Shown: one piece after another, positions 1,967 through 3,871 of the stretch
Position numbering within the stretch: position 1 is the stretch's first letter
How the letters are laid out: each line of letters starts with the position of its first letter
IMG/VR virus record: IMGVR_UViG_3300036944_000395
Coordinates: 1-23,886 of that record
Direction: 5' to 3' (one strand)
Origin: a virus
DNA length: 23,886 bases
Notes under the pieces: model-generated
What the model saw: the letters and a program-made list of their open reading frames with translations, nothing else
The model's database searches: none
What the model was told of the DNA's origin: nothing
Made by a program: the position numbers and the translations under genes

Positions 1967-2320
1967 ATGACTGATCGAGAGCTTTTGGAGGCGGCTGCTA
2001 AAGCTGCGGGGCTGGAGCCGGGACGATGGCGCGAACTGCCGCACCAGTGCCTGACGCTGCTGGACGCAGAAGGCGAAATTGTCAACGCAGGCTGGAACCC
2101 GCTGCAAGACGATGGAGACGCGCTGCGGCTGGCTGTGAAGCTGCGGCTTGTCGTCAGCATCGAGCCCACAGACACCGCAGTTGGCCTGCCGGATGGGCGT
2201 GGCATCCTGCCAGATGGGCGCGACTTGCTCATGACGCATGAGCCGCACCAAGCCGATGCTGCCGCAGCCACCCGCCGCGCAATCGTCCGCGCAGCCGCTG
2301 CGCTGGGAGAGAAGCGATGA
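1967..2320 (+). CDS. Small phage protein of unknown function (GWNPL...DGDALRL type)
   Basis: A 117-aa acidic protein starting MTDRELLEAAAKAAG. The start is chosen because AAGGAG at 1955-1960 lies 6 nt before this ATG; the open frame extends back to 1796 but without a site or coding character. It shows a pattern I recognise from many proteobacterial phages: an N-terminal helix 'elLelAAkAaG', a central GWNPLQDDGDALRLAVKL block, and a C-terminal helix ATRRAIVRAAAALG. No catalytic or metal-binding motif is visible, and function is unknown. The stop overlaps the next start (ATGA at 2317-2320). It forms a two-gene unit with the following gene. Confidence 0.8.
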   Translation: MTDRELLEAAAKAAGLEPGRWRELPHQCLTLLDAEGEIVNAGWNPLQDDGDALRLAVKLRLVVSIEPTDTAVGLPDGRGILPDGRDLLMTHEPHQADAAAATRRAIVRAAAALGEKR

Positions 2321-2709: not shown

Positions 2710-3021
2710 CGTTTTGTGTGCGGGCATGGCACAAGCCGAGGGGTGACCTGCACCCGCTTTGCCCGGCTATTGGCTGTTGCAGCCGCCCAGCATGTCCCGG
2801 AGGATGAGCTTCTATTTCCACGGCGCCCCGTAACGTGGGGCCAGACGCATGTCACCTTGCTGCCGTGTTCCTGCGGTCCCGCTCAAAGGTCCGCGCGCTG
2901 GCTTGTGAGTAAGCGCAAGTCTGTTTCTGCGGTGGGGGCCAACTCACGCCCACTACGTTTTGCCACCACACAGCCGCTCTGGCATGCAGAAAGGCGAAAG
3001 CCCGCAGCTTCAGCCCATCCG

Positions 3022-3110
3022 TGCTTGGCGGCAGTTGACGAAAGTTCGTCTACGGATGAACCGAAGGCATGCGAGCCTTCAGGGTGAACTTTACCAACCG
3101 CCGCCAAGCA
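3022..3110 (-). ncRNA. Candidate structured RNA (three-way junction)
   Basis: The two ends are complementary over 16 bp: 3022-3037 (TGCTTGGCGGCAGTTG) pairs with 3095-3110, with one mismatch on the + strand that becomes a G-U wobble on the - strand. Inside, 3063-3080 forms a perfect 6-bp hairpin (GAAGGC/GCCTTC), and 3044-3061 forms a 7-bp hairpin with a TACG loop (one G-T pair on the + strand) or, instead, 3037-3050 forms GACGA/TCGTC. The - strand is preferred because the SOS-type promoter at 3118-3133 would start RNA at about 3115, just before the outer stem. No U-tract ends it. Existence as an RNA is inference. Confidence 0.35.
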
Positions 3111-3117
3111 GTGACGA

Positions 3118-3133
3118 CTGTATTTTATCACAG
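3118..3133 (-). promoter_or_regulatory. LexA (SOS) box overlapping an extended -10 promoter
   Basis: The sequence CTGT-8 nt-ACAG is a perfect match to the LexA half-sites used in Gamma- and Betaproteobacteria. On the - strand the same bases contain TGATAAAAT (3130-3122), an extended -10 element (TGn plus TAAAAT). No good -35 is seen, as is usual for extended -10 promoters. LexA bound here would block this promoter, so transcription leftward would rise on DNA damage. The predicted RNA would start near 3115, cover the structured element at 3022-3110 and run antisense toward the early genes. Confidence 0.6.
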
Positions 3134-3172
3134 TGGTAAATCTACGGATGCGCTATCAGATACCGCGTGCTA

Positions 3173-3871
3173 TCAGCGCTTGATCCACTTGCCCGAGAAC
3201 GGATCAAGTTCTTCGGCAAGCTTTGCCTTGGCGCCGGTCGCTGCGTAGTCGAAGAAGGCAACTTCTTTGCCGGGCACAACCTCCACGCCGTCAAACCCCT
3301 CCCGCTTGATAGCGGCCCAATCACCGGCATCGACGGCCTTGTCTAGCTTTGGGCTGTCACCTATCTTGTAAACGCGCATGCCTGCGTCATCCAGCGCATG
3401 CACCGCGCCTTGGTTGTGGCTTGCGTACTCTCTGGCGCTGCGCTTGCTGGGCGTAAACGACAAGGCAGGCACGCCATCCAAGACAATGCCCTGCTTGTCT
3501 GCCGTCGGATTCTTGACGATGTTTCCGCCGTGCCACATGGTTGCTGGACTCGCGCCTGCTGGCCCCAAAGCGCCGTTATACCGCTGGAACTGGTCAGCAT
3601 GCCGCAACAGCCCGCCCGCGATCTGCGGCGCAGCAGCTTGCACAGCAGCAGGCGACAGCAGGCCCAGCGTCTGCCCGATCACTTGCCCTGCGCCTTGCTC
3701 CACGGGTGCCATCAAGCCCTGAGAGCGCATCCACTCCGACGACATCAGAGCGTTGGCCGGAACCGGAATGCCTGCTTTGCGCAAGAGCCACGCGATGCCG
3801 TCAACCGGCCCGCTGATGTTCTCGGCTGCGGTGTTGCTCATCGCTTGGAGAGCGTTGCGGATTTCACTCAT
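3173..3871 (-). CDS. Virion-type protein with ADP-ribosyltransferase-like C-terminal domain
   Basis: This 232-aa protein is the last gene of the late operon. Residues 14-90 (AAENISGPVDGIAWLLRKAG, then a small-residue helix region) resemble the linker found in large phage ejection proteins. Residues 113-208 look like an ART fold of the polyvalent-protein type: WHGG (113-116), LSFTPS followed by A-x-x-Y-A (137-150), VYKI (167-170), GFDGVEV (192-198) and KEVAFFD (202-208). ART domains transfer ADP-ribose from NAD+ to targets. The canonical catalytic E is not certain here. A start at 3871 is supported by AGGT upstream. It may be an effector injected with phage DNA. The domain call is from pattern only; it could be a degenerate remnant. 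Confidence 0.45.
   Translation of the reverse strand: MSEIRNALQAMSNTAAENISGPVDGIAWLLRKAGIPVPANALMSSEWMRSQGLMAPVEQGAGQVIGQTLGLLSPAAVQAAAPQIAGGLLRHADQFQRYNGALGPAGASPATMWHGGNIVKNPTADKQGIVLDGVPALSFTPSKRSAREYASHNQGAVHALDDAGMRVYKIGDSPKLDKAVDAGDWAAIKREGFDGVEVVPGKEVAFFDYAATGAKAKLAEELDPFSGKWIKR

Follow-up and report, generated by a model that had tools for sequence, protein, structure and literature searches.

LexA-controlled phage promoters and small phage RNAs

Phage promoters under LexA control and small RNAs under LexA control are both known kinds of regulatory elements. Coliphage 186 tum, N15 antC, the Gifsy antirepressors, promoter P1 of GIL01, and CTX are LexA-controlled phage switches (cited in PMC4551915), and the switches described in the literature consulted here drive proteins such as antirepressors. 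tisB and istR-1,2 have been named as LexA-regulated (PMC8072944). The c4 antisense RNA of phages P1/P7 and their relatives is represented in Rfam as RF01695 (PMC2864571).

The locus considered here is part of the linear IMG/VR virus record IMGVR_UViG_3300036944_000395, whose 23,886 bp were analyzed over their full length and are referred to below as the window. Like the above-mentioned switches, it possesses a phage promoter proposed to be under the control of the host LexA protein, but while those switches drive the production of proteins, the promoter of the window would yield an RNA, apparently without coding function, where late and early genes meet. With IstR-2 of the enterobacterial tisB-istR system, a LexA-regulated small RNA, it shares the proposed placement of a small-RNA promoter under LexA; it differs from this system in that no toxin gene was recognized adjacent to it, in that no sequence relation was found (no Rfam match), in being phage-borne, and in its fold. 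Like c4, the window RNA is a small structured phage RNA, but it has its own LexA-type promoter, does not match the c4 model, and has no icd/ant gene that we could find downstream of it. The c4 RNA also pairs with a downstream sequence of its own transcript.

The RNA is apparently undescribed. No family of Rfam 15 matched it at or above the gathering threshold, the c4 covariance model did not recognize it even at a relaxed threshold, the annotated phage, plasmid and E. coli collections contained no relevant similarity, and no description of it was found in the titles and abstracts of the literature searched. As neither Rfam nor the annotated collections searched contain the RNA family, it is open to naming, to modelling and to a search of existing RNA-seq data. 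If our reading of the locus is true, a conserved phage RNA that codes for no protein, lies where the late genes end and is controlled by LexA would extend the prophage SOS regulon by an RNA.

Genetic setting of the locus

The late genes of the phage (the end of the portal gene, and genes for a P22-like coat protein, ejection and tail proteins, an endolysin and an exonuclease) are encoded on the minus strand and end at position 3173, while the early module (Gam-like protein, the excisionase Xis, a lambda-family integrase, and two small ORFs) is encoded on the plus strand and ends at position 2709. Both the SOS box and the RNA locus (Table 1) reside within the 463-bp gap separating these convergent modules, which is where the initial annotation had placed the box; the element is preceded by the exonuclease gene and two small genes and followed by the end of the early module. 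A segment of the window reaching from 2718 to 3116 can be aligned with positions 105-487 of another IMG/VR contig (L269) with 78% identity. Searches of Pfam and NCBIfam for an Icd/Ash-like protein on the plus strand of the gap gave no match. The window and L269 have in common a plus-strand reading, FPRRPxxxGQTxVTLLPCSCG, within 2718-2986, after which the frame is shifted. The 232-amino acid protein encoded at the late end (3173-3871, minus strand) has no family match; the gene at the equivalent place in the phage contig L016 matches ART-PolyVal below the cut-off.

Table 1. Features of the gap between the early and late modules (window coordinates)
Feature	Position	Strand	Evidence
LexA-like (SOS) box, core CTGTATTTTATCACAG	3116-3135 (core 3118-3133)	.	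19.3 bits; exceeds every other site of the window by 15 bits
Extended -10 TGATAAAAT within the box	3122-3130	-	Homologous elements and distant ones have a -10 equally far from P1; predicted start near 3115
Predicted structured small RNA, ~125-130 nt	2987-3115	-	Covariance model R3; homologues; non-coding in homologues
P1 5' arm (TGCTTGGCGGC plus extension)	3095-3110	-	Inverted repeat; five-sequence pairing count
X, 5' strand of P2, within the loop of P1	3052-3080	-	Complementary to 2996-3021; pairing retained in homologues, in part by compensatory changes
P3 hairpin GACGAACUUUCGUC within the loop of P1	3037-3050	-	100% of cells paired; one pair changed on both sides
P1 3' arm (GCCGCCAAGCA plus extension)	3022-3037	-	Inverted repeat; five-sequence pairing count
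X', 3' strand of P2	2996-3021	-	X/X' pairing in homologues
Pyrimidine-rich tail GCCUUUCUGC, weak terminator-like end	2986-2995	-	UUCGCCUUYC conserved in homologues
Rest of the gap	2718-2986	.	Homologous to L269

The closest syntenic phage fragment (L162; integrase 82%, holin-like protein 74%) possesses neither the box nor the RNA nor an unusual fold in its corresponding gap, which does not share a single 9-mer with that of the window. This bears on the idea that the gap serves as the phage attachment site or as another recombination element. In two phage contigs, the gap between late genes and int contains a CTGT-N8-ACAG sequence near a tRNA-derived sequence resembling an attP core (L006, 7849-7930; L016, 8350-8460), but arm-type repeats that the window has in common with L162 (AATCAA at a 56-bp spacing, and ATGTAAAC) place attP just behind int, at 1768-1966, and the gaps of the window and L162 have no 9-mer in common. 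The arm-type repeats beside int that mark a lambda-type attP are lacking in the gap, and judged from its repeats, the 1768-1966 segment is the likely attP; a recombination function of the gap has, in our view, very little to recommend it. L006 and L016 are phages that have the exonuclease in common with the window.

A LexA-like box overlaps an extended -10 sequence

The CTGT-8-ACAG palindrome that had been reported in the gap is indeed present, and CTGTATTTTATCACAG is the sole CTGT-N8-ACAG sequence of the entire record. Most Betaproteobacteria have this pattern as their consensus (PMC6595937). Taken by itself, it does not exceed chance expectation, as 0.35 occurrences are expected per window and 29 of 100 shuffled sequences contain it. 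The full 20-bp site, GACTGTATTTTATCACAGTG, gives a different picture: assessed with a LexA matrix derived from a set of 14 SOS sites of E. coli (a caveat to all scores given here), it scores 19.3 bits, and hence falls within the range of operator strength spanned by the E. coli training sites (15.4-33.1 bits). The second-best LexA-like site of the window has 4.5 bits, none of 400 simulated windows reached 19.3 bits, and only 0.015% of simulated gaps with the local base composition attained the score of the box. That the box arose as a random match within AT-rich promoter or spacer sequence is therefore quite improbable; the chance-level frequency of the bare pattern and the lack of the box in L162, the only close syntenic relative, speak for it, but they are outweighed by the full-site score and by the independent sites present at homologous elements (see below).

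With the same matrix, convincing SOS boxes were also detected upstream of DUF1654 genes in L205 (at ~2003) and L206 (at ~3569), two phages related to the window via their integrase. In these cases, as in the window, an SOS box is situated upstream of a phage gene, but this gene is protein-coding there, while it would specify an RNA here.

As had been proposed, an extended -10 sequence is embedded in the box on the minus strand (TGATAAAAT, read from 3130 to 3122), so that the operator-like site overlaps the putative promoter, though the -35 region is poor: no good match to a -35 hexamer precedes the extended -10 of the window. The exact sequence TGNTAAAAT occurs twice in the window versus 0.08 expected occurrences; when one mismatch is permitted, extended -10 sequences are present at chance frequency (2 versus 2.0 expected).

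A predicted structured RNA downstream of the putative promoter

The structured element alluded to in the initial annotation can be recognized from the arms of P1, the only inverted repeat of at least 13 nt reported in the window (distance limit 120 nt), and from fold z-scores between -5.0 and -7.6. When folded from its predicted start at 3115 on the minus strand, the RNA has a free energy of -66.6 kcal/mol (z -5.0), and its architecture reads, in order, 5'-P1 - X - P3 hairpin - P1' - X'-3'. A covariance model (R3) scores 145 bits at 2987-3114, a value to which the membership of the window in the model alignment contributes. A terminator scan did not report a match at the tail of the RNA (2986-2995), which is poor in U.

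The transcript had been suggested to run antisense to the end of the early operon. We prefer to view it as a self-contained RNA with a length of ~125 nt and a 3' end near 2987; the early gene p6 ends ~280 nt further on, at 2709, and an antisense transcript covering p6 would require read-through past 2987, which is unsupported. The transcript may nevertheless be longer than drawn here, because the homology to L269 continues past the predicted 3' end, up to position 2718.

The segment from 3012 to 3154, box included, folds better than the RNA starting at 3115, and this raises the alternative that the CTGT/ACAG palindrome is stem B of a three-way junction in the 3'-terminal part of the late message rather than a protein-binding site. 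In the window alone, 3012-3154 does close into such a junction, in which the palindrome forms the short arm (z -7.6 on the minus strand, -6.9 on the plus strand). However, the outer helix depends on the repeat TCTACGGATG (copies at 3049 and 3141), whose upstream copy is missing in the homologues, and the fact that this helix is not kept counts against a junction. P1, P2 and P3, in contrast, are kept in the homologues, and every homologue has a -10 sequence at this place. We consider a purely RNA-structural role of the palindrome improbable.

Homologues and distant relatives of the RNA

A pattern derived from the P1 arms, GCTTGGCGGC-N50-80-GCCGCCAAGC, retrieved 16 contig stretches. Among these, the covariance model identified five IMG/VR contigs with true homologues, three with scores of 76-79 bits (L262, L266, L269) and two with 37-39 bits (L255, L267), which are 75-91% identical to the window (about 80-91% over the RNA); the number of independent lineages among the contigs is no higher than about three or four. 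On the five-sequence alignment, 94% of the cells are paired in contrast to 34-45% in slid controls; six cells are compensatory and three pairs are changed on both sides. P1, P2 and P3 are thus kept with compensatory changes, in an alignment of five sequences only. Since P1 is nearly invariant, the support for the structure rests on P2, P3 and the extension of P1. The X/X' duplex has a mean energy of -43 kcal/mol when both strands come from the same member and of -24 kcal/mol across members. Reading frames through the RNA are interrupted by stops in the homologues; the RNA is therefore not a conserved peptide gene.

The element recurs mostly at late or lysis ends, in phages that have only patches of other DNA in common with the window. 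It follows the genes for an endolysin and an Rz-like spanin in L269, those for an Rz-like spanin and an exonuclease in L266, and tail and holin-like genes in L267, where convergent integrase and excisionase genes come next. Four more distant elements (L256/L265, L260, L264, L268) share P1 by the design of the search; independently of it, they possess a long P2, in which the P1 loop pairs with the sequence following P1, and a terminator-like end. The match in L261 is doubtful, and the remaining pattern matches are due to chance or coding sequence.

Scans with the exonuclease, coat, integrase and holin-like proteins revealed no homologue of the gap, L162 being the only syntenic fragment and lacking the element; the neighboring protein p8 had no relatives when used as a query. 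A single-sequence model of the RNA found nothing in 299 Pseudomonadota genomes, and prophages with related coat proteins in two genomes (G347, G295) had no box in the portions examined. The hairpin loop GAAGGCNNGCATGCCTTC yielded coincidental matches only. R3 gave three weak matches in 369 genomes of one class, none of which was accepted (two lie in coding sequence and have large deletions, the third is weak), and when the P1-arm pattern was run against 398 genomes from a single order, its matches looked coding, as judged by eye.

Conservation of the putative promoter and of the LexA-like site

A -10-like hexamer is present 12-13 nt in front of P1 in the window (TAAAAT), L269 (TATACT), L266 (TAAACT), and L255 and L267 (both TAAAAT), and it occupies the same place in three of the four distant elements (L256, L260, L264). 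This placement supports the proposals of a minus-strand promoter and of a start beside the structured element, for which we predict position 3115 from the comparison of the contigs.

In the window and in L266, L269, L255 and L267, that is, in five of five contigs, the top-scoring LexA-like site found anywhere in the contig adjoins the promoter of the element, with best and next-best scores of 19.3/4.5, 7.5/5.2, 12.8/-3.8, 11.9/3.5 and 11.9/6.5 bits, respectively. When read on the RNA strand, these sites lie over the -10 hexamer in the window (CTGTGATAAAATACAG) and in L255/L267 (CTGTATAAAATCACAC), and at the -35 region in L269 (CTGGATGCCCATCCAG) and L266 (CTGGACGCGCGTACAG). As a control for AT-richness, 1000 column-permuted palindromic motifs were used; at most three of the five contigs were reproduced in any of these trials, and the single-contig rates were 1-4%. 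The four distant elements have no LexA-like site at their promoter; the site is therefore not a by-product of promoter composition. An operator-like sequence is hence kept at the homologous loci, though in degenerate form in some of them: the site of L266 is weak, and in that of L255/L267 the CAG half, which is near-invariant, carries a mismatch. The expectation that relatives would conserve the half-sites thus holds in part. L162 has neither box nor RNA, while the relatives endowed with the RNA retain a LexA-like site that is weaker and, in two of them, found at -35 instead of -10. The recurrence of the top-scoring site at this very place in each of the contigs compared lends support to the suggested LexA control.

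It is also conceivable that RNA and promoter are real, but that the palindrome serves a repressor other than LexA as operator, for instance the phage's own, or has no function and is not bound by LexA. Both the sequence and the place of the palindrome vary with the lineage, the -10 of L269 is contained within a palindrome of its own (GCGGG-N9-CCCGC), and the site of L266 attains just 7.5 bits. Set against these features is the coincidence of the top LexA-like site with the element in all five contigs, which the permuted motifs failed to reproduce. We regard this alternative as unlikely, yet deserving of serious attention.

Proposed function of the RNA

We favor, as the probable explanation, that the box is a LexA operator covering the -10 region of a minus-strand sigma-70 promoter for a short structured regulatory RNA. 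In the lysogen, LexA would keep this promoter off; upon DNA damage, cleavage of LexA would permit synthesis of an RNA that starts at ~3115 and ends at ~2987. This RNA would fold into stem P1 with a loop bearing X and the P3 hairpin. Because X', which follows P1, is complementary to X, P2 could form as a pseudoknot-like or terminator-like structure that would end the RNA. Action in trans would be most likely, the target in the course of induction being an RNA or a protein of the phage or of the host. A search for cis targets in the respective contigs gave only 11-mer matches, in about the number expected by chance; L266 is the exception, with four matches (two of them overlapping) versus 0.8 expected. 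The initial annotation had further suggested that the locus could couple DNA damage to prophage induction without going through repressor cleavage; this finds no footing in our data, and no repressor gene was recognized in the window contig.

Since a LexA-like site recurs beside the RNA promoter in other phages, it is probable that certain temperate phages produce this RNA in response to damage to the DNA of their host. A broader proposal, which we advance tentatively and rate as possible rather than probable, is that of an undescribed family of phage regulatory RNAs, characterized by a P1 with the GCUUGGCGGC stem, X-X' pairing and P3, of which one branch, found at the late or lysis ends of several temperate phages, would be under host LexA control, be made on damage, and tune induction or lysis.

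The distant RNAs are located at 8775-8894 in L256, 129-240 in L260, 6816-6929 (minus strand) in L264, and 5795-5907 in L268, and have promoter-like sequences without a LexA site upstream. Those of L264 and L268 seem to be situated among early or recombination genes, and a protein resembling the product of window positions 1967-2320 (phrog_5086) is also encoded near the RNA of L264, at -621 to -226 relative to the element. The RNA of L256 directly precedes a gene resembling a replication gene.
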